Shown piece by piece: positions 22,902 through 37,305 of a DNA stretch of 64,000 bases. Each line of letters starts with the position of its first letter. Within the stretch, counting starts at the first letter, position 1. The notes beneath the pieces were generated by a model. It had not been told where the DNA came from and did not search any database. It worked only from the letters and a program-made list of their open reading frames with translations. Where the stretch lies: positions 62,001 through 126,000 of the forward strand of contig JAFXSE010000003.1 of NCBI GenBank assembly GCA_017525855.1, in the 5' to 3' direction. This stretch comes from Bacilli bacterium. Its GTDB lineage: Bacteria; Bacillota; Bacilli; RF39; UBA660. The translations under genes were made by a program, and so were the position numbers.

Positions 22902-23840
22902 ATGCAAAGTTTAATAGAATGGCAACCGTTTAATACAGAAAACAAAGCTTCCGTTACATTTAATCAATTTATAGATATTGTTAAGCAATTAGATAATAAC
23001 ACTTCTCCAGATTTGTGGTTAAAATGGAAAAATTATGCACATCAAGTTGTAATTGAAACTCCAAATTACTTTTACAAGATATATCAAGATTTATTTTCTA
23101 GTGGTGAATTCTTTGCTCAAATTAGAGAGGCCATGGGAAAAGTATATAGAGAACAATACGGATTAGTTTGGAATACCAAGCATATAATAAAAGATGGATT
23201 TGTTTATACGATAGAACAAAGAGAAAAATTACAAGTTTGTAATCCAGATATAATTTCATATGATGATTTATTTTTAGGATGGGCAAAAACTTTAAAATTA
23301 ATTGAAAAAGAATTAGCCTTTCCAGAAATAGCTGAACAATTAAAAGATAAAATACAAAATTTAGCTAATATAAAATTAGTTAGACTTTGTGTAAATAAAT
23401 TTATTGACTATGGTATAACAAAAGATAACAATATTATTTTACTAGATGATGCCGATTGGTTTATTGCTTTAATCGATAAAGATGGTGATTGGATGTCATC
23501 AAAATTTAATGCTTATGAAATATTAACATTACTCGGCGAAAAATTATTTGCTCCACAAGAATATCATGAAATGAAATCTAGAATAGAAAGCGTGGGTCAG
23601 CAAATAGATAAATGGATGATTTTTTCTAAAGAAAAAGATAATACTAAAGAAAATATAAATAATTTATTAGATAAGCATGAACAAATGCTTACTGATAATA
23701 TTAAAATGTTAGCTACTGAGAAAAGCTTACCAAATAATAAAAAATTATATTATGATGATAGGCAACTTTATGCGATAACCCATAATCAATCACCGATTAA
23801 ATCTCTATCACAAAGACAACAAGCATCTGAATCTATATAA
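22902..23840 (+). CDS. hypothetical protein with weak kinase-like C-lobe pattern
   Basis: The 312-residue protein contains FIDYGITKDNNIILLDDADWF at about 167-187, which loosely resembles the catalytic/metal-binding strands of small-molecule or protein kinases (N..I...G.I.LiDda). The N-terminal half lacks an obvious P-loop. I do not assign a family. Its last 55 bases overlap the end of the convergent radical-SAM gene, an unusually long tail-to-tail overlap with no terminator between. Confidence 0.5.
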   Translation: MQSLIEWQPFNTENKASVTFNQFIDIVKQLDNNTSPDLWLKWKNYAHQVVIETPNYFYKIYQDLFSSGEFFAQIREAMGKVYREQYGLVWNTKHIIKDGFVYTIEQREKLQVCNPDIISYDDLFLGWAKTLKLIEKELAFPEIAEQLKDKIQNLANIKLVRLCVNKFIDYGITKDNNIILLDDADWFIALIDKDGDWMSSKFNAYEILTLLGEKLFAPQEYHEMKSRIESVGQQIDKWMIFSKEKDNTKENINNLLDKHEQMLTDNIKMLATEKSLPNNKKLYYDDRQLYAITHNQSPIKSLSQRQQASESI

Positions 23841-24826
23841 GCAGCATAATTTAATAAATGTCCGCATTCTTCATTAATTTGATTTAATCCATTATCGCCT
23901 TCGGTTACTTCTACTAAATTACTTTTATTTCGATGATTAAGCTGCATTCTGTGTCCTTCTTCTTCATCATTCATATTTCGATATAAATCATCTGCTCTAT
24001 ATATAATATTAAATAAATGATCATATAACGAAGGACAATCCTGCTTAAATTTAATTAAAAATTGTAAAAAAGTTTCACGTTTTGGAAAAAATCCAGGTAA
24101 TGTTTTTTCCATTATTTCTTTTGCTCTTTTTCTTCCTTCTTTACTCCAAGGTGAAACTCCCTCTAAATCTATATGTGTAGATCCAGGAGAAGGTTGTTTA
24201 AAAAAGATCGATGAATGATAAGTATCCATATATTCTTTAAAAGAAAACTTATCTTCTAAGTATTTTGTTATCAAATCTTGTGTTAAAATCATACAAGTAT
24301 TAAATTTAATACCAGGATACCTATTATATAAATTTTTCATAGTATAATCCCAAGTATCTAACATTTTTTGTGTATGAAATCTACCAATAGTATCATAAGA
24401 TGTAACTATCCAGACTTGCTCCATTAATTCTGGTTTACCTGCTTTTAGATATTCATTATTCATAATATCAAGTGATTCATATAAATCTTTTTGATCACCT
24501 ATAGTTAATGTACAAAGTAACCAAAATTCTTTTATTTGACCTGAAACTTGTAATTCTGCAGTTTTTTTCATTAATCTTAAAAATTTTTCTTTTAATTCTG
24601 GTGTTTCTAATTGCCCTTGAAAAAATTCACCACCTAAATAGCTTAAAGTATTATATGGAGCAATTTTTTCTTCATCACTTATAAAATTATATGCATCTTC
24701 AACTGCTTTTATTTTCAAATTAACAGGAGTAAACTTATTATTTTCACCTAAATAACAAAACTTACATTTATTATTGCAGCATTCCCACAATTCAAACTGT
24801 AAACATTTTTTTTCATGTATATCCAT
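23786..24826 (-). CDS. radical-SAM enzyme A
   Basis: The 346-residue protein has the radical-SAM CX3CX2C motif at Cys17, Cys21 and Cys24 (CNNKCKFCYLGE) and a GGE SAM-binding motif at 64-66. Near the C-terminus is CGH (321-323), then Y-x-DSD and C-LCD (336-340). This pattern recurs in enzymes B and C and could bind an auxiliary Fe-S cluster or zinc. It is the longest of three adjacent paralogues and last in the operon. AGGAG within the end of gene B serves as its ribosome binding site. Radical-SAM enzymes use a 4Fe-4S cluster and SAM to start radical reactions; the target is inferred to be the Ser/Cys-tailed proteins upstream. Confidence 0.85.
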   Translation of the reverse strand: MDIHEKKCLQFELWECCNNKCKFCYLGENNKFTPVNLKIKAVEDAYNFISDEEKIAPYNTLSYLGGEFFQGQLETPELKEKFLRLMKKTAELQVSGQIKEFWLLCTLTIGDQKDLYESLDIMNNEYLKAGKPELMEQVWIVTSYDTIGRFHTQKMLDTWDYTMKNLYNRYPGIKFNTCMILTQDLITKYLEDKFSFKEYMDTYHSSIFFKQPSPGSTHIDLEGVSPWSKEGRKRAKEIMEKTLPGFFPKRETFLQFLIKFKQDCPSLYDHLFNIIYRADDLYRNMNDEEEGHRMQLNHRNKSNLVEVTEGDNGLNQINEECGHLLNYAAYIDSDACCLCDRDLIGD

Positions 24827-24827
24827 T

Positions 24828-25751
24828 TTATTCTCCTAATATCTGTAAATCACAAAGCATACATTCATCAGAATCTGAATAACATCTATACAATATACTA
24901 TGTCCACATTCTGAAATTTCTTCTTTTCCATCTGAAAGTATAGGTTGTTGATCTACTGGACCTTTTTTGTCTCTGTAACCTGTATATTTATATAAAGCTG
25001 ATACATTGGTTGAACTATACATATTTCTATATATTTCTGGAAATTCTTTTTTTAAATAAACACAAAAATTAATAAAATCTTCACGCTTAAAAAAGAAATC
25101 ATCTAATTTATAACCAGAATTTATTTCATGAGGATACAAAAAACAAAAGCCACAGCCTTTAATATCTTCTTCTAAAAATTTATGTAAATTAAATTTACCT
25201 GACATAATATCATCGATCATATATTGAGTTAAAATCATTTGAACCCCTGTTCGATAATTATATTTTTTTGTAAATTCTTGAATATTTTTAAGTGCTAAAG
25301 CTCGTTTTTCGTCCGTAGGATAACGATATTTAATATCATAAGAAAAGTTTATATCTAATTTAGAAGTATCGCCTGTACGCTCAATAATACGATCTACAAC
25401 ACGATATAGAAAAGCTGGATCATACATACCATTCGTAACAGTAGAATATCTGCATCTTGGTGATTTACTTACTAACAATACTTTATCAATAATGTCATCA
25501 ATAAGATCCATAAACTTTTCTTGAATATCAGTATCTGTTGTAAAATAAATTTCACCACCTAATAATGAAATTCCATCTGCAAATTTATCTTTCCAATCAA
25601 TGTAATTAAGATTATCTTGAATATTTTGTAATTCTTTTAAAATTCTTTCTTTACTCCAAACATCTCTGTTCTTTCTTAGACAGAATTTACAGTTATTATT
25701 ACAATTTGGCCAAGTAGCATATTGAACCATATAATGACCGTTTAACTTCAT
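24828..25751 (-). CDS. radical-SAM enzyme B
   Basis: The 307-residue paralogue has Cys17, Cys21 and Cys24 (CNNNCKFCLRK), GGE at 65-67, and the terminal motif CGH (282-284) ... YSDSDECMLCD (291-301). The middle contains FSYDIKYRYP and ILTQYMIDD, equivalents of which occur in enzymes A (ILTQDLITK) and C (ILTDSFCDA). Its ATG overlaps the stop of gene C (TAATG), indicating translational coupling. Length is typical for a minimal radical-SAM core plus a small C-terminal Cys domain. Substrate unknown. Confidence 0.85.
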   Translation of the reverse strand: MKLNGHYMVQYATWPNCNNNCKFCLRKNRDVWSKERILKELQNIQDNLNYIDWKDKFADGISLLGGEIYFTTDTDIQEKFMDLIDDIIDKVLLVSKSPRCRYSTVTNGMYDPAFLYRVVDRIIERTGDTSKLDINFSYDIKYRYPTDEKRALALKNIQEFTKKYNYRTGVQMILTQYMIDDIMSGKFNLHKFLEEDIKGCGFCFLYPHEINSGYKLDDFFFKREDFINFCVYLKKEFPEIYRNMYSSTNVSALYKYTGYRDKKGPVDQQPILSDGKEEISECGHSILYRCYSDSDECMLCDLQILGE

Positions 25752-26626
25752 TAATTATCTCCAAACAATACTTCTTTTAATTCTTTACAATCACAAATAA
25801 AACAACTATCAGAATCTGAATAACAATTTTTAAAGTTTTCTGAATGTCCACATTTGCTTTTATCTGCTGTTACATTTATTAATTTACCATTTTTATATTG
25901 ATGCAGATTAAATTCTTGTCCTAATAAATAATTATTTATATATTTTAATAAATAATCAGAATCCTGTTGTTTAAGATGTAGTAATGTATTAAATACCTTT
26001 TCTTTTGTAGGTGCTTCAACTACTGTTCCATATTTTATATAAGGTATAGTATTAACATCTACATTATATTTAGTTTTATATTCTTTTATATTGAACTGAT
26101 CATTTAATATAGCATCACAAAAAGAATCAGTTAAAATAATATTACAAATTATATATAAGTCAGGATATTTAGATCTTATATATTTTAAATTTTTATAAAA
26201 TAAATTTTTTGATGTTTTATTTGCAAATCTACCAAAATCATCAGCAGATGTTGTAAAATGAATTCTATTAATTAAATTTGCAGTATTGAATAATTCTAAA
26301 ACAGGTATTAATAAAGAATTTAAATCATAAAGGATATTAGTATTGATATAACATTTATCAATTTCATTTTTTAACATTTTATCAATGATATGAAGAAATA
26401 AACCATACAAATCAAGTTTAACTTGTGTATTTGTTTCGGAAAAAATTTCTCCACCGATAATTAAAATATGAAAATTTTGTAAATCTTTAATATAATCTAT
26501 AGTTAAAGCTATAGCTTCTAATTGTTCATCAATAGTGGATTGTTTATCTTTTCGTTGCCAACAGAATTTACAATTATTATTGCAATTATTCCATAAAAGG
26601 AATTCGTGCATTGGTAAAACTGTCAT
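25751..26626 (-). CDS. radical-SAM enzyme C
   Basis: The 291-residue paralogue begins MTVLPMHEFLLWNNCNNNCK with cluster cysteines 15, 19 and 22 and has GGE at 58-60. Its terminal motif is CGH (259-261) ... CYSDSDSCFICD (268-279). It is the first of the three enzymes, 24 bases after the gene for the 419-residue Ser/Cys-tailed protein, with AAGGAAGG before the ATG. Divergence among the three copies is large outside the motifs, so each may do a different step or act on a different residue. Confidence 0.85.
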   Translation of the reverse strand: MTVLPMHEFLLWNNCNNNCKFCWQRKDKQSTIDEQLEAIALTIDYIKDLQNFHILIIGGEIFSETNTQVKLDLYGLFLHIIDKMLKNEIDKCYINTNILYDLNSLLIPVLELFNTANLINRIHFTTSADDFGRFANKTSKNLFYKNLKYIRSKYPDLYIICNIILTDSFCDAILNDQFNIKEYKTKYNVDVNTIPYIKYGTVVEAPTKEKVFNTLLHLKQQDSDYLLKYINNYLLGQEFNLHQYKNGKLINVTADKSKCGHSENFKNCYSDSDSCFICDCKELKEVLFGDN

Positions 26627-26650
26627 AAATCCTTCCTTTCTTTAATATCT

Positions 26651-27910
26651 TTATTTTAGTTTCATATATCCTATAAAGTATGAACTACTTGAACTACTAG
26701 AACAAGAACTTGAACTAGAACTTGAGCTAGAGCTTGAACTCTTTACACTAAACTCATAAATCATAGTTTTAATTTTACTAGATGCATTTATTTGTGTAAG
26801 TAATCTATTCAAAGCTCCATCTATTGTATTATTTGCATCAGCTGAAGTAGGACCAAAATCTTCATCTGTATCAGGATTAATACTTACATTTGATGTCGGA
26901 ATTTGATTAACCAATCTTTTAGATTCATTACCTAATTTTTCTAATGGATCAGAAGAATTATTTAATACGTTAGTTATTTCATTTATTCTAGCATCACTCA
27001 AATATATTATTGGTTTTACTGTCGTATTTAGTGTTGAAACTGCATAGCATAATTTTAAAGAAAAGAAAGATGCAGCTGCATTCCAAAAAGCTACCATACT
27101 TTTACTAGTAACTGGTGTATCATCTAAAGCATTTATATTATTACGAGTTAAATATGCATTAAATTCATTTTTTATAGTATCAAATTCAATTTGTGTTACA
27201 GCACTTGTATTATATAATTTCAAAGTATAAGAAGCACCTGTATTATTAGATACACTAGTAGTCCATGAAGCAATATTGTAAAATTCTTTTATAACTGTAC
27301 CGTGTTTATCTTTAATTCCAATAGTAGCTCCATTGTTTTTATAATAAACATCATATATGGCATTAGATATTGAATAGGAATTATTATTATAATGTTTACT
27401 ATTAACCTCATTTTGTGTTACACTATTATATATAGCTAATCCATCTGTATCTTTCCATACAATTTTATTATCTTCCAGGGTAATATATGCAGGTACCCAT
27501 GTTCCATTTTTACCAGGATATGCAGAATTAGCTACAGTATTTATACCTACATTATAATGTACCATATCATTTGTAATTGTTGTAGATCCAGCAGGAATTA
27601 CAATCATAATAACTCCACCATCTGTTCTTACTGTTATGACATTGTACCATGTAGATTTATCTTGTGAAATAGTCCATGTAGAAAATGCGCTATCTGCTAT
27701 GCCATTTCCGTATCTATATCCAGAAGTAGCACTAGATATACCACCACGCGTTGGGTCTTTAGGAACAGTTACTGTTTTCGTATATCCAGCCTTAAATTCT
27801 AATGGAATACTATTAAATTTTGAACCTAAGTTAGATATAATTGTACTTACTGTATCTAATAACTTAGTTTTTAATTCTCCATATGTTATTATTGTATTTG
27901 AAGATATCAT
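26651..27910 (-). CDS. Ser/Cys-tailed putative virion surface protein D
   Basis: The 419-residue protein looks like a beta-rich fibre or decoration protein: repeated Ser/Thr/Asn/Gly strands and no catalytic motif. It shares with the adjacent 293-residue protein a domain around MVAFWNAAASFFSLKL and the whole C-terminus. It ends with 12 serines, one Cys, 7 serines and then YFIGYMKLK. The tract is exactly 20 residues, as in the paralogue. The stop is followed directly by the three radical-SAM genes. Such an invariant terminal peptide next to maturases recalls ribosomally made, enzyme-modified peptides, here possibly on a structural protein. Confidence 0.75.
   Translation of the reverse strand: MISSNTIITYGELKTKLLDTVSTIISNLGSKFNSIPLEFKAGYTKTVTVPKDPTRGGISSATSGYRYGNGIADSAFSTWTISQDKSTWYNVITVRTDGGVIMIVIPAGSTTITNDMVHYNVGINTVANSAYPGKNGTWVPAYITLEDNKIVWKDTDGLAIYNSVTQNEVNSKHYNNNSYSISNAIYDVYYKNNGATIGIKDKHGTVIKEFYNIASWTTSVSNNTGASYTLKLYNTSAVTQIEFDTIKNEFNAYLTRNNINALDDTPVTSKSMVAFWNAAASFFSLKLCYAVSTLNTTVKPIIYLSDARINEITNVLNNSSDPLEKLGNESKRLVNQIPTSNVSINPDTDEDFGPTSADANNTIDGALNRLLTQINASSKIKTMIYEFSVKSSSSSSSSSSSSCSSSSSSSYFIGYMKLK
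26681..26740 (-). repeat. Ser/Cys codon tract of protein D
   Basis: Twenty codons encode S12-C-S7. Serine codons alternate between AGY and TCN over most of the length (AGTTCA/AGCTCT-type hexamers). A single-codon slippage run would not do this, and the two codon families are not interchangeable by one silent change. Two tyrosine-flanked conserved residues follow. Confidence 0.85.
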
Positions 27911-27911
27911 A

Positions 27912-28793
27912 TTATTTTCCTAATTTCATGTATCCAATAAAATATGAGCTACTAGAGCTACTCGAACAACTTGAACTAGAGCTTGAGCAAGAACTTGAAC
28001 TAGAAAAAGTAGACCATGTATAAGTGATCGATCTAACTCGAGCCGAATTATTAACTGATGCTTTTAATTGTAATAACATATCATCTACGTGAGAAGCTGT
28101 AATAACTTCATCTACCGGAAAAAATTCTATATCAATTTTAGTTTGTCTACTATATCCAGTATGTAATATAACTGTATTTTTTAAATCATTTATTTCATAT
28201 CTGCTCGGAGATAAAATTGAACCATCAACACTAACTTTTAAAATACTATTCTTGTTAGATACAGTTGTATTAAGTGGAATATTAACTTGCTCCGCAGGCA
28301 AAGTATAAGAAATACGCTTACTAGTTATTATATCTGTTTGATCATAAGTAACAGCATTTGTATTATAAATTAAAACAGTATTTAAACTTAAAGATGAAGA
28401 TACATATGTTAAGCGTTTATTACAAAAAGTTGCAGCATTATTCCAAAAATTTAAAATTCCATTTGTAGATAATGTTATTTCATTATCTATTTTTGTTTCA
28501 AAATTTCTAGCTGCCATGAAATCGTCAAATTGTTTTTGTACTGTAGTTAATGAAACAACTTCAACAGCTGTACTGTTATTAATAGTTACTGTAACTCCAC
28601 CGCCACCCATATTAGCAGACATCCAATCACCACTTTTGGCTCGTCTTGAATTTTTAGTCATTGAAAAATTTTTACGCATTGAATTATCTACAGTGACTTT
28701 TAAAGTATCTATATTTTGACAATTATCTTTTATCCATTGTAAAAATATATTACGTAAATCTCTATAGGTATATGTAACATTAGTTGCGGTCAT
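27912..28793 (-). CDS. Ser/Cys-tailed putative virion surface protein E
   Basis: The 293-residue paralogue of the downstream protein starts MTATNVTYTYRDLRNIFLQW, and has a Gly-rich loop (NMGGGGVTVT) and the shared ILNFWNNAATFCNKRLTY element. It ends with S5-C-S6-C-S7-YFIGYMKLGK. The last Cys lies at the same place as in protein D, and the 20-residue tract length is identical. Its stop lies one base before the next ATG, so the pair is co-translated. A virion surface or tail-fibre location is inferred from composition and genome context only. Confidence 0.75.
   Translation of the reverse strand: MTATNVTYTYRDLRNIFLQWIKDNCQNIDTLKVTVDNSMRKNFSMTKNSRRAKSGDWMSANMGGGGVTVTINNSTAVEVVSLTTVQKQFDDFMAARNFETKIDNEITLSTNGILNFWNNAATFCNKRLTYVSSSLSLNTVLIYNTNAVTYDQTDIITSKRISYTLPAEQVNIPLNTTVSNKNSILKVSVDGSILSPSRYEINDLKNTVILHTGYSRQTKIDIEFFPVDEVITASHVDDMLLQLKASVNNSARVRSITYTWSTFSSSSSCSSSSSSCSSSSSSSYFIGYMKLGK
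27945..28004 (-). repeat. Ser/Cys codon tract of protein E
   Basis: Twenty codons encode S5-C-S6-C-S7, again with alternating AGY and TCN serine codons. Cysteines fall at positions 6 and 13, seven apart, and the second aligns with the only Cys of protein D. Confidence 0.85.
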
Positions 28794-29818: not shown

Positions 29819-29967
29819 TACAATCTCCTATAACTTTTCTAATTATACTATATAATAAATAAAATTAAAAGAAAAACAGTAAATTTCCATTACTAACTAA
29901 AATTTTATGTAGAAAATATAAATAATAAAATTCCAATACATAAATGATTAAAAAGATGGAGTTACAA

Positions 29968-32478
29968 ATGAGTATTTTAACTAATAAAAGTGTATCTGAA
30001 GAAGATGTATATAATATTGTAAGAAATGAATTAGATAAGCGCTTAGATAAAAATATTATAGATGAAAAAGAAAAAGCTCATGCTGAATTTTTACAAAATT
30101 TAAAAAATACTTCAGAAAAATATATGAAGGATTTTAAATTTTATTTAGCAGCAATAGATGGTGCTAGATATATAAGTAATGATAGTGTATGTAAAAGTGA
30201 TCAAAGTACTCCAAAGCCATTGGAAGTAGAAGAAGAATGTCCACGTGGAATCAGGGGTTTAGAATATAGTGAAAATTCATCAGAAATTTTAAATTTAATA
30301 TCTAAATCACATTTAGATATGTATGAAAAATATTATTTACTTTATTATATTTATTTATATTATACTTCTATAAAAAAACAAGATCCAAAATTTACAGCTT
30401 TAAATTCACTGCAAGAAACTATTTCTTTATTAAGAATATTACAATGTAATTTTACTAATGGTATTTTTAATTATCAAAAACAAATTCTTGGCTTTGAAAA
30501 AACATTAACCAATAATAGATTAATTAGAGAAATGGCTAAAGATTCATATGAAAGAAAAGGACATTGTATTTTTCATATAAATGATTTATACTTTACAAAA
30601 GAAATACATGAATTATTTAAGTCATTTTTTATAAAAACATTAAATAAAATGGAATTAGCTTTAAAAAAAATTGATAAAAATACTCTTAAAAAACCTTATT
30701 ATATAGAAAATCTTGAAGTATACTGTAAAAGTATTAATTTACCAAAAAGTTATATTGATATTGCTAGGTATTTACTTTTAAATAATATCGTTGGCATTCA
30801 TAAAGTACTTGTTATGTTTGATAGTCATCTATTTACTTCTTTATCAACATCTATTGATTCATTGTTTTTTATAAAAAAATTATTACATATAAAATCTAAT
30901 ATATCTTTTAATTTTAACGATACTAATTTATTTTATACACATGGTGATTTAGAAAGTTTAGAATTTATTGGTAAAGTATTGATAAATATTCTTACTAAAA
31001 ATACAAGTAATACAACTGTTTTGAGTAACTTTGTTAAAACAATAGAAGATGATAATTTAACACAAAATGATTTTAAGCATTTTAAACAATTTGATTATGT
31101 AAAAGAAATTCTTAAAAAAGCCTTAACTAGTAAACAAAAAGGTATTAATATTTTGTTTTATGGTAAGCCAGGTACAGGAAAATCAGCTTTAGCCAAAACA
31201 TTAATTAAAGAAACAGGTGCTATTGGTTATAAAGTAGATAATTCAAATTCTACTGGATTAGTAATGTCTCATGGAAATATTAAAAAAGATGAAAATACAA
31301 ATAATATTTCAAGAATTAATAATTATTCTTTCTTGCAATCATTTTTAAAATCATCTAAAAATTCAATTATACTTTATGATGAAGCAGAAGATTTTTTTAA
31401 TAAAAAAGATGATATTTCACAAAGTAAAGAATATATTAATAATTGCTTAGAAAATAATCAAGTACCAGTTATTTGGACTGCAAATGATTTATGGTGTATT
31501 ACAGAATCTTTTAGAAGAAGATTTACATTTGCATTTAATATTGATCAAATACCTATGTCTACTTATCAAAAATTAATAGATAAATTTTCAACTGAATTAA
31601 ATATTGAATTACCAAAAAATATTCAGAGTGAAATTATAGAATATAAACCAAATATAGGTACATTAAAAAATGTTTTAACTAATTATAGTCAATCTAATGA
31701 CCGAGATTACAGAAAACTTATTGATAATTTAACAGAAGCTTTAAAATGTCAAAATTGTGGTGAAGATGTTAAAAAAATTAAACCAAAAAGACCTGTTGAA
31801 TTTAATATTGATTTATTAAATACTTCTGATGATTTAAAAACATTTACAAATAAAATTGTAAAATTAAATAGGTTAGATTTTAGTTTACTTTTATATGGAG
31901 TAAGTGGTGGTGGAAAAAGTTTTTATGCTGAATATTTAGCAGAACAACTGGGCATTCCTGTAATCAAAAAGAAAGCAAGTGATCTCGAAAGCATGTGGGT
32001 AGGTGAAACTGAACATAATATTGCAAGAGCTTTTGAAGAAGCTAGAATTAATAAAGCTATGTTAATTATAGATGAAGGTGATCATTTTATTTCAGATAGA
32101 TCTAAACATATAAGATCTTGGGAAACTAGTAGATCCGAAGAAATGCTTCAACAGATTGAAATGCATGAGTATCCAGTTATATTTACTACAAATTTAATTA
32201 AAAATGTAGATAAAGCTGCTATGAGAAGATTCACTTATAAAACTGAATTTAATTATTTAACAAAAGATCAAGTAAAATTAGCTTGGAAAATTTACTTCCC
32301 AGAAGCCAAATTGCCAAAAGATATATATTTATCTAAATTGTGTCCTGGAGACTTCTCTACGGTCAAAAAACGAGCCGAATTTGAAGATTATTTGACAGAT
32401 ACAAAAATGTTATATAAATCTTTAGAGAATGAAATTAAAATGAAAAAAGAAGATACTGAAAAAACTATAAATTTATAA
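29968..32478 (+). CDS. tandem AAA+ ATPase
   Basis: The 836-residue protein has two AAA+ modules. The first has Walker A GKPGTGKS near 399 and Walker B ILYDEAEDF near 467; the second has Walker A GVSGGGKS near 645 and Walker B LIIDEGDHF near 700, with an arginine-finger-like RRFT in both (SFRRRFTF, AMRRFTYK). A CQNC pair lies between them. The helical 380-residue N-terminus is unfamiliar. The second module resembles the AAA core of FtsH/spastin-like enzymes. I chose the third in-frame ATG, which has GGAGTTACAA before it; the first at 29944 has no site. Substrate unknown; remodelling of virion or replication complexes is possible. Confidence 0.87.
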   Translation: MSILTNKSVSEEDVYNIVRNELDKRLDKNIIDEKEKAHAEFLQNLKNTSEKYMKDFKFYLAAIDGARYISNDSVCKSDQSTPKPLEVEEECPRGIRGLEYSENSSEILNLISKSHLDMYEKYYLLYYIYLYYTSIKKQDPKFTALNSLQETISLLRILQCNFTNGIFNYQKQILGFEKTLTNNRLIREMAKDSYERKGHCIFHINDLYFTKEIHELFKSFFIKTLNKMELALKKIDKNTLKKPYYIENLEVYCKSINLPKSYIDIARYLLLNNIVGIHKVLVMFDSHLFTSLSTSIDSLFFIKKLLHIKSNISFNFNDTNLFYTHGDLESLEFIGKVLINILTKNTSNTTVLSNFVKTIEDDNLTQNDFKHFKQFDYVKEILKKALTSKQKGINILFYGKPGTGKSALAKTLIKETGAIGYKVDNSNSTGLVMSHGNIKKDENTNNISRINNYSFLQSFLKSSKNSIILYDEAEDFFNKKDDISQSKEYINNCLENNQVPVIWTANDLWCITESFRRRFTFAFNIDQIPMSTYQKLIDKFSTELNIELPKNIQSEIIEYKPNIGTLKNVLTNYSQSNDRDYRKLIDNLTEALKCQNCGEDVKKIKPKRPVEFNIDLLNTSDDLKTFTNKIVKLNRLDFSLLLYGVSGGGKSFYAEYLAEQLGIPVIKKKASDLESMWVGETEHNIARAFEEARINKAMLIIDEGDHFISDRSKHIRSWETSRSEEMLQQIEMHEYPVIFTTNLIKNVDKAAMRRFTYKTEFNYLTKDQVKLAWKIYFPEAKLPKDIYLSKLCPGDFSTVKKRAEFEDYLTDTKMLYKSLENEIKMKKEDTEKTINL

Positions 32479-34899: not shown

Positions 34900-37305
34900 T
34901 TAAAAATCAATTCTTACAACACATTCAATTAAATTTTTAGTACCAATACTCTTGTCAATTACTTTACCTAAGCATTTACCATTTTCAACTGTAGAGGCAC
35001 ATCCTTTTTTAACTTTTGATAGATAAATCTTATCACCAAAATGTGGAAAACAGTTACCATCAAACATAACAGGTACTCTTCCAACTAAAGCAACTGGTAA
35101 ATCTAATTCACTACGTTTTTCACCTAATTGATAACCAGGTTTACTAGAAATAATACCATTACATTCATAATCAGCTATAGAAATTTCATTAATTCCTTTG
35201 CCAAATGTAATTAATGTACCAGCTGGATAATATTCATCTGATTTATAATACTCAGCAATATCTTTATACCATGCACGATAAGCTACGCCATAAAATGAAA
35301 TATCATCAACAATATATGGGTTAGTATCATATCCACCACTATCTTTAGTCTTTAAATCAAAACCAGGAACACCTTTACCAATTAATACTTCATTAAAGTG
35401 AGTGAATGTTTTAACTTCAATAGGATTAGTTAAAATTTTACCAGGTTGACTATCTAATTCAGGTTTTGTTATTTGTAAATAGTTATTATATGCAGTCCAA
35501 GGAGTTAAACTTGTTTGATGTGCAGCTTGAATGTATTTATAAGAGTCACGAACTTCACAATCTGTAGCATACCTTGTTGTACCATATATTTCATCACTAG
35601 CTTCATTTCTTAAATCCAAAGCCAATTGAATTGAATTAGTTCCTGTACACCAACCAATAAAGCTATCCGTTCTTTCTAATGTTGGTTTACCTGCATTATC
35701 TCCATATCCACAATATACTGGTTGATTAAGCCAAGTACTATCCATAGGCCAAATGTATTGTGGTCTTTTTTCTTGCTTAATACTAAATCTTGCCCCTTCA
35801 CCATATTTTAAATTTGAGCGACTATCATAAATTGCTTTAACTATACATGGATTACTTGGTAAAGAAATAGCACCACTTTCAGGACCAACTAATTTAAAGC
35901 TAGAAATTGCACCATCACTATTTGTATAAGTAACAATAATTTTAAAAATTAAACTATCAGTAACTGGTAAAAATAATTCATCACCAATTCTATAATTTTT
36001 ACCAGCAGCTGCTCTAGTTAAAGTATATGTATAAATTGCATTTTCTTGATTATTTGCTATTGTACCAGCATAAACAATACTATTACCTACACGTAAACCT
36101 ATTGGCATTTTAGTATTTTTTGTAAGTATCGGTGGTTCTTGTGAAGGATCTGTAGGATCATAACCATCAATATCGTAACCTTTTGAACTAGAATCTGCTT
36201 CTTTTGATGCAACTGTTTCTGGTTCACCTTGTGCTCTATGATATTTACCATCTTCATTGCAATAATATACAAACATATAATCTTTTACGTCAGAAGCAAA
36301 ATAATCACCTTCTGTAGGTAAAGTTAATATATTATTACTTGGTTGAAAATATACCCAATCAGGAGTCATTAAATTTTCAGTAGTAGTAGTTCTTGGAACT
36401 GCAATAGCTGGAACACCTGATCCATATAAATTGTCAACTAAATAACAATTATGTGGTTGTTGAACCGGACTATATCTAAATTGTAATAATGTTTCATTTG
36501 GTACTTCTGGAATACTTTGCTCATTTTCATTTTGAATACTTAAATTAGCAACATATCCTAAATTATTTAAAACAGTATTAAAGTGAAAACGTAATGTATT
36601 ACCAACCATATCTAAATCATCAGCATATTTTTTAACTGCCGATGGCAAGCTAGCTACACCAAATAAAATATCTTCATCTTCACTACTATTGCCAATGTTT
36701 ACATATTTATTACCTTTTTTAACATATAAAGCAATAGCACCAATTAACCATTCAGTATTACCATTATCATCTTTAGCACCAACACCGATATTAGCTAAAT
36801 CAAAGGTATATTGTAAACTGCCTGTAGCTGTATTATAACGCCATTTTAAAATGTTATTTAAATCACTTGAGCTATGTTTTGAATTTTTAGTACCGATAGT
36901 AAATACAACATTACCAGAAGATATAAAATCATTATCTGTCCAATTTATAATTGGCTTACTTGGATTTATAATTACATTATCAATTATTTTAATACCACTA
37001 AAATATAATTGATATCCACCTTGTAAAACATATGTTAATGCATTTAAGCCTTCATTTGTAATAACTAAAGAATAATTACTATCTGGTAAAACAGTATTCC
37101 AGTTATTACCATTAAATTGTTCAAGCTCCCATCCATCTACATCATTACCAATAGCACAATATGTACTTTCTACTAATCTAGAAGGATTACTTATAAAAAA
37201 TTGATCTCGACTTATTGGATCGCCTGCACCATATCTTCTTGCAAAAAATAAATCATCAGGTACATAATATGGTGATGCAGATAACTGTTCTTTTTCAACT
37301 AACAT
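34900..37305 (-). CDS. large tail fibre or baseplate-associated protein
   Basis: The 801-residue protein is beta-rich and starts MLVEKEQLSASPYYVPDDLF. Scattered Gly/Tyr-rich strands resemble fibre or wedge-attached proteins. A C-terminal segment (FGDKIYLSKVKKGCAST, LGKVIDKSIGTKNLIECVV) looks like a beta-barrel often found at the ends of phage fibres. It is preceded by a 96-base gap that holds a weak CAGTTCAATATA promoter-like element. Confidence 0.6.
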   Translation of the reverse strand: MLVEKEQLSASPYYVPDDLFFARRYGAGDPISRDQFFISNPSRLVESTYCAIGNDVDGWELEQFNGNNWNTVLPDSNYSLVITNEGLNALTYVLQGGYQLYFSGIKIIDNVIINPSKPIINWTDNDFISSGNVVFTIGTKNSKHSSSDLNNILKWRYNTATGSLQYTFDLANIGVGAKDDNGNTEWLIGAIALYVKKGNKYVNIGNSSEDEDILFGVASLPSAVKKYADDLDMVGNTLRFHFNTVLNNLGYVANLSIQNENEQSIPEVPNETLLQFRYSPVQQPHNCYLVDNLYGSGVPAIAVPRTTTTENLMTPDWVYFQPSNNILTLPTEGDYFASDVKDYMFVYYCNEDGKYHRAQGEPETVASKEADSSSKGYDIDGYDPTDPSQEPPILTKNTKMPIGLRVGNSIVYAGTIANNQENAIYTYTLTRAAAGKNYRIGDELFLPVTDSLIFKIIVTYTNSDGAISSFKLVGPESGAISLPSNPCIVKAIYDSRSNLKYGEGARFSIKQEKRPQYIWPMDSTWLNQPVYCGYGDNAGKPTLERTDSFIGWCTGTNSIQLALDLRNEASDEIYGTTRYATDCEVRDSYKYIQAAHQTSLTPWTAYNNYLQITKPELDSQPGKILTNPIEVKTFTHFNEVLIGKGVPGFDLKTKDSGGYDTNPYIVDDISFYGVAYRAWYKDIAEYYKSDEYYPAGTLITFGKGINEISIADYECNGIISSKPGYQLGEKRSELDLPVALVGRVPVMFDGNCFPHFGDKIYLSKVKKGCASTVENGKCLGKVIDKSIGTKNLIECVVRIDF

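Follow-up and report, generated by a model that had tools for sequence, protein, structure and literature searches.

What do radical S-adenosylmethionine (SAM) enzymes act on when their genes lie packed against those of putative phage structural proteins? The question is raised by a 64,000-nucleotide stretch of DNA, here called the window, from the Bacilli bacterium assembly GCA_017525855.1 (contig JAFXSE010000003.1, positions 62,001 to 126,000). On its minus strand, from 28793 to 23786, two genes whose proteins end in a serine/cysteine (Ser/Cys) tract and a short tag are followed by three tightly packed radical-SAM genes, assigned to classes A, B and C. Reading downstream, 1 base separates the two tail genes, 24 bases lie between tail gene 2 and the class A gene, the A and B genes overlap by 1 base, and B and C are 1 base apart. 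The Ser/Cys tail is probably what the radical-SAM enzymes modify. This reading is drawn from four points, namely that the genes co-occur, that the tract is kept Ser/Cys, that the tag is conserved and that the modelled class B enzyme has a radical-SAM fold. Judged by its matches to PHROG families (tail tube, baseplate wedge and hub, head protease, and endolysin), the window is a stretch of a tailed phage; its GC content is 28% and it carries 13 tRNAs.

The Tail Proteins

Tail protein 1 ends in S5-C-S6-C-S7 followed by YFIGYMKLGK and tail protein 2 in S12-C-S7 followed by YFIGYMKLK, with a tract of 20 residues in each. The two proteins cluster together when the Ser/Cys runs are masked, meaning that their kinship extends beyond the tail, and this bears out the description of two paralogues given in a first-pass annotation of the same DNA. 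The coordinates, tract formulas and spacings which that annotation had listed for the tail and radical-SAM genes were all recovered when the open reading frames (ORFs) were read again.

A structural model of the tail protein has a mean predicted local distance difference test score (pLDDT) of 72.7, which falls below 50 over residues 267-288, comprising most of the tract and tag. Searched against PDB and BFVD, the model gave no match at E≤0.001. The top rows, to be taken as a lead only (E from 0.013, TM score at most about 0.2), consist largely of tail, neck and fibre proteins of phages, and a tail-fibre-like gene lies nearby (window 34900-37305, phrog_19602, E 1.5e-5). This weak fold resemblance and the neighbouring gene suggest a putative fibre accessory; the neighbouring genes and weak fold matches also point weakly to a putative virion protein. 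BLAST against the INPHARED phages, with a low-complexity filter that masks the tract, gave no match for tail proteins 1 and 2 or for enzymes A and B.

Co-occurrence of Tails and Enzymes

With the class A protein as the only query, viral contigs yielded no relative. Scanning IMG/VR for an alignment of the three enzymes gave 5 loci, and the addition of class B and class C alignments brought the total to 13 viral contigs. A class B search of prokaryote genomes yielded 4 contigs, including those of Desulfovibrio sp. An276 and of a Bacilli metagenome-assembled genome (MAG). These genome relatives are contigs binned to prokaryote genomes and only candidate prophages; two proteins of An276 gave no PHROG match. 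A Ser/Cys tail with a matching tag is present in 14 of the 17 other enzyme-bearing contigs (11 of the 13 viral contigs and 3 of the 4 genome contigs, CASEYV, An276 and JAFZWP, the tail of the last becoming visible after the stretch of contig examined was extended).

The converse search made no use of the enzymes. Three codon scans for Ser-Ser-x-Phe-Ile-(Gly/Ala)-Tyr-Met returned 12, 6 and 106 stretches, all of which were read; Ser/Cys tails were found in 8 viral contigs and the remainder look like chance. All 8 contigs also carry the enzymes, 6 of them in the locus with the tail and 2 elsewhere on the contig, and only 3300028481_000010 was newly found through the tag. The first-pass annotation had set out that its idea would fall if such tails occurred mostly without radical-SAM neighbours; in the contigs searched, the pairing found from both directions is the opposite. 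By script criteria, 164 viral loci divide into 30 with both, 5 with enzymes only, 1 with a tail only and 128 with neither, a descriptive table of loci that were fetched by pattern and are no random sample. The enzymes-only loci are three of a truncated contig, L033 (the tail of its contig lies in L022) and 031998_642, and the tail-only locus, L073, shares its contig with the enzyme locus L021. L070, a short locus with a cut tail ORF, was scored as neither though its contig has both.

When the ORFs of 18 contigs were clustered with Ser/Cys runs masked, the enzymes were found in all 18 and the tail-protein family in 14 (24 proteins). Because the relatives repeat the arrangement of tail and enzymes, it is more than chance: this is a recurring system and no one-off.

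Composition of the Tract and Tag

Composition was read from 24 tails in 16 contigs, window included, which belong to partly related phages and hence are not independent. The tail-bearing proteins measure 197 to 640 aa, with tract and tag at the C-terminus. The one of 640 aa (L027 5442-7364) has a longer, different-looking N-terminal part. The tract is 9 to 35 residues long (median 23.5), so that the fixed length of 20 residues proposed at first describes both window tails and not their relatives. Similarly, both window tails have a Cys aligned seven residues ahead of the tag, as do only part of the relatives, in which Cys positions vary.

A run-based count gives 482 Ser, 59 Cys and 3 other residues, but under-counts the others by construction, and the residues were therefore recounted at the 15 fixed positions before the tag (n=360), which hold 323 Ser, 29 Cys, 2 Asn, 2 Tyr, 2 Thr, 1 Ala and 1 Val. 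Cys makes up 29 of these 37 non-Ser residues (59 of 62 in the run-based count), far above the mutational expectation of 8.1%, which is how often a non-synonymous change of one base in the Ser codons of these tails would give Cys. This excess points to Ser and Cys being interchangeable in the tract, with little else allowed. Cys also lies early, filling 26 of 96 places in the first four positions and 3 of 96 in the last four; among 10,000 shuffles, none had an equally early mean Cys place and 28 had equally few Cys in the last four.

The end tag has a consensus of roughly x-[FY]-I-[AGV]-Y-[MF]-x-[LI]. The proposal that YFIGYMKL is a recognition tag holds as far as conservation goes, in that a recognition element could look like this; recognition itself is presumed.

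In five pairs of tails compared, most codons differ, and the differences are mostly synonymous, at least half being switches between AGY and TCN codons for Ser. The An276 tract uses TCN codons only (0 alternations vs. 19). Because of the Cys excess and these mainly synonymous differences, selection is, on the codon evidence, acting on the tract at the protein level. In the window tracts (26681-26740 and 27945-28004) AGY and TCN codons alternate near-strictly (15:2 and 13:2). The alternation is weaker in CASEYV (18:6), 028888_2023 (12:4) and one tail of 010049_11 (10:4), and about even or less in most other tails.

The Radical-SAM Enzymes

All three window enzymes carry CX3CX2C within residues 15-24, and their alignment has this motif, GGE and a C-terminal CGH...Y.DSD.C..CD in common. 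Scores against the Pfam family Radical_SAM (PF04055) are 17.8, 21.8 and 26.5 bits and do not reach the gathering cut-off of 29.5 (best E 8.2e-6), whereas the PHROG family phrog_1802, "radical SAM," matches the enzymes at E 1.5e-9 to 5.2e-8. Because this family match is joined by the fold of the class B model, membership of the radical-SAM superfamily is supported despite the sub-threshold Pfam scores. The C-terminal CGH...CxxC region, which may bind a putative auxiliary Fe-S cluster, is conserved in classes A to C and lacking in the aligned proteins of class D, a fourth class often found beside the other three. Profile classification assigned 88 enzymes in 19 contigs to classes A-D. Within the DNA examined, A, B and C occur together in 14 of the 19 contigs, the window having exactly one of each, and 17 of the 19 hold three to ten radical-SAM paralogues.

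Foldseek gave the epipeptide epimerase EpeE/YydG as the best match of the class B model. In a comparison of the class B fold, the anaerobic sulfatase-maturating enzyme (anSME) stood in the first row (Z 13.3), with viperin at 12.8 and several others tied within 1 Z; the fold also resembles the maturases SkfB, SuiB, ChlB and PapB. The class C profile reached a single family above chance in PDB, again EpeE/YydG (8ai1, E 0.0015, 179 positions), while the class A and class B profiles gave chance matches only, and so did searching PDB with the A and B sequences singly. Among NCBIfam models, the anSME model TIGR03942 was not listed at E≤1 for any of the window enzymes, and the viperin model NF038283 scored at best 23.2 bits vs. 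a cut-off of 180.

Proposed Mechanism and Alternatives

After synthesis of the tail protein, the tag at its C-terminus would dock on the enzymes as a follower-type recognition strand, and A, B, C and often D would act on the Ser/Cys tract as the substrate "core." Hydrogen might be abstracted from Ser or Cys, with C-beta as the likeliest site by the example of anSME, which works on either residue, and the products would be oxidised (formylglycine-like) or cross-linked residues; formylglycine-type chemistry in particular, proposed by analogy, is rather unlikely. Carbamoyl- and glycosyltransferases encoded in some clusters may decorate the tail further, and the modified end of the putative tail-fibre accessory could serve host binding or virion stability. 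The rumen and Desulfovibrio records among the relatives (by title) fit oxygen-sensitive enzymes.

Several results weigh against the tail as substrate. Because anSME is tied with viperin, an enzyme acting on nucleotides, the predicted fold of class B cannot tell what the substrate is. None of the NCBIfam radical-SAM peptide models reaches its cut-off for the window enzymes, and the tracts hold no Pro, so that the C/S-x-P start of the anSME substrate motif is absent. No tail was seen in 028481_30, whose enzyme row is truncated by the contig end, in CANPXY, a 10-kb contig with four enzymes (the rest of that genome was not searched), or in the 16.9 of 26 kb examined of 031998_642, which has a single class C enzyme and is, as far as seen, a real exception to the pairing. 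To these are added the kinship among the phages of the tail set, the presence in the masked clusters of some tail-family relatives without a tract, and the carbamoyl- and glycosyltransferases of some clusters, which also fit a glycan.

The main rival takes the tail for an O- or S-glycosylated stalk, with radical-SAM enzymes that make or tailor the sugar, in the manner of DesII, and leave the peptide alone. Both Ser and Cys are known glycosylation sites, and a carbamoyltransferase family occurs in 6 of the 18 contigs (7 proteins, of which the 6 scanned, from 5 contigs, were all Pfam-confirmed). The case is strongest in JAFZWP, where the cluster includes two DegT/DnrJ-type aminotransferases, a GDP-mannose-type dehydratase and two GT2 glycosyltransferases; one GT2 glycosyltransferase is also present in 028888_2023. 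Overall, this explanation is unlikely.

It is improbable that the product of the enzymes is a small molecule or nucleotide, as with viperin, serving host takeover or anti-defence, and that they merely adjoin a structural polyserine tail in a late-gene island. Such an arrangement would not account for the co-occurrence in both search directions, the paralogues in most contigs seem too many for one simple product, and the near restriction of the tract to Ser and Cys is left unexplained.

Polyserine stretches reportedly occur elsewhere, in a paper on Teredinibacter, and the tail could be an unmodified flexible, metal-binding or disulfide-forming stretch that is kept Ser/Cys for physical reasons. 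However, every tagged Ser/Cys tail seen shares a contig with the enzymes, and a linker should also accept Thr, Gly, Asn, Ala and Pro, yet these residues fill only 5 of the 360 fixed positions, making this reading very improbable. That the Ser runs are a DNA-level repeat expansion, functionless as protein, is hardly credible on the codon data. The alternation in the window is what a hexamer repeat would give, but most other tails are mixed, An276 shows TCN codons alone, the tails compared carry different codons at most positions, with mainly synonymous differences, and both tag and enzymes are conserved.

Isolated Jumbo Phages with (CHxS)3 Tails

Three other enzymes of the set weakly match jumbo phages in INPHARED. 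In all six records examined, one of the proteins encoded beside the radical-SAM genes has the ending CHxSCHxSCHxxRxRR, here called the (CHxS)3 tail. The records are Pseudomonas phage pPa_SNUABM_DT01, Burkholderia phages SURPRISE13, FLC6 and FLC8 (the last two examined over 7 kb only), Sinorhizobium phage Phosso and Agrobacterium phage Atu_ph07. Cupins are annotated beside the radical-SAM genes in DT01, SURPRISE13 and FLC6, 2-oxoglutarate-Fe(II) oxygenases nearby in DT01 and SURPRISE13, and virion structural proteins nearby in SURPRISE13, FLC6 and Atu_ph07. The tail is common while the rest of the protein differs, because phrog_35144 matches the end only in 3 of the 4 (CHxS)3 proteins tested and the whole length of the fourth. 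The (CHxS)3 proteins have no NCBIfam family match, and one DT01 enzyme is nearest to anSME, cyclophane and ranthipeptide maturases in NCBIfam, all below cut-off. By analogy, the Ser/Cys and (CHxS)3 tails may work alike.

A wider proposal, still tentative, is that phages of gut anaerobes use a multi-step radical-SAM pathway, with a follower tag, to turn a genetically encoded Ser/Cys homopolymer on a virion protein into a non-protein polymer (for instance a poly-aldehyde or a thioether-linked strand), and that giant phages infecting other hosts do something related on (CHxS)3 tails, so that enzyme-finished adhesins would form a general class among phages. If so, phages would perform radical chemistry on their own structural proteins, adding a new layer to the meeting of virion and host, and would be a source of enzymes acting repeatedly along a homopolymer. 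It would also hint at what the radical-SAM arrays of jumbo phages, so far unexplained, are for; since isolates of some of these phages exist, the proposal is directly testable.

Relation to Known Systems

That radical-SAM enzymes modify ribosomal peptides is already known. Searches of open full texts (preprints and non-open papers lay outside the scope) turned up no description of a phage set acting on a Ser/Cys homopolymer at the end of a large phage protein. Precursors of sactipeptides and ranthipeptides, which are ribosomally synthesized and post-translationally modified peptides, are short and have an N-terminal leader. Their maturases (SkfB, SuiB, ChlB, PapB) share with the phage system a similar fold and a Cys-containing region beside radical-SAM enzymes. 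By contrast, the phage tract and tag are C-terminal in proteins of 197 to 640 aa, which do not have the form of a short precursor with leader and core. The His-Xaa-Ser system (HxsA/HxsB/HxsC) combines several radical-SAM enzymes with a repetitive region. The (CHxS)3 tails contain His-x-Ser, whereas the window tails lack His, and the HxsB and HxsC models fall far below cut-off.

Like the proposed phage enzymes, anSME is a radical-SAM enzyme that acts on Ser or Cys within a protein, with a fold similar to class B, but it modifies one residue in a sulfatase motif, described as C/S-X-P-X-A-X4-T-G (PMC3920027), and not a long C-terminal Ser/Cys tract served by several enzymes. EpeE/YydG, the best Foldseek match of class B and the profile match of class C, is described as acting on Val/Ile of a secreted peptide (PMC8326336), and no peptide of that kind was seen beside the phage enzymes. 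A further phage arrangement, compared by published description only, is the radical-SAM array of jumbo phages such as Aeromonas phage 332-Vera, where many such genes lie inside the structural gene cluster, a situation called "highly unusual" (PMC12390700). In their passages on such phage genes, three papers mention them without a function (PMC12390700, PMC11898562, PMC5468394).

Features and Accompanying Genes

Table 1. Positions of the tail, enzyme and neighbouring genes (window) and of the (CHxS)3 proteins (by locus).
Feature	Position	Strand	Remarks
Tail protein 1, 293 aa	27912..28793	-	N-terminal domain, C-terminal 20-residue Ser/Cys tract, YFIGYMKLGK
Tail protein 1, end	27912..28004	-	tract 27945-28004; tag and stop 27912-27944
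Tail protein 2, 419 aa, paralogue	26651..27910	-	Ser/Cys tract, YFIGYMKLK
Tail protein 2, end	26651..26740	-	tract 26681-26740; tag and stop 26651-26680
Radical-SAM enzyme, class A, 291 aa	25751..26626	-	CX3CX2C; C-terminal CGH...CYSDSDxCxxCD
Radical-SAM enzyme, class B, 307 aa	24828..25751	-	AlphaFold2 model, mean pLDDT 80.1
Radical-SAM enzyme, class C, 346 aa	23786..24826	-	class C profile reaches EpeE/YydG, E 0.0015
Small protein, 170 aa	28806..29318	-	directly upstream of tail protein 1; weak Pfam match below cut-off
CHxSCHxSCHxxRxRR protein	L194 6469-7005
CHxSCHxSCHxxRxRR protein	L195 4647-5207
CHxSCHxSCHxxRxRR protein	L196 1472-2392
CHxSCHxSCHxxRxRR protein	L197 10179-11069
CHxSCHxSCHxxRxRR protein	L198 4078-4638
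CHxSCHxSCHxxRxRR protein	L199 4078-4638

The family of the small upstream protein is present in 14 of the 18 clustered contigs, and a family of about 340 aa, three scanned members of which match no Pfam family above cut-off, is present in 6. In L043 and L066 (G001, Bacilli MAG) ten class A-D radical-SAM genes are mixed with genes for two carbamoyltransferases, two DegT aminotransferases, one sugar-nucleotide dehydratase and two GT2 glycosyltransferases, as well as for additional radical-SAM proteins resembling, by eye, split MiaB/RimO-type enzymes. The CASEYV cluster encodes a radical-SAM protein of MiaB/RimO type (L068 8768-10141), with a UPF0004-like N-terminus just below cut-off.

An exact scan of viral contigs for YFIGYMKL returned 11 stretches, none with a Ser/Cys tail: 8 share one unrelated frame, those of L007 and L011 lie inside another protein, and the remaining one is an L009 ORF ending KQCQYFIGYMKL.

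At the downstream end of the window row, the 3' end of the class C gene overlaps a convergent ORF (22902-23840) by 55 bases (23786-23840). On the opposite strand, the cluster is adjoined by the gene for a protein of 844 aa (29944-32478), two parts of which match ATPases (phrog_10401, E 1.5e-67).
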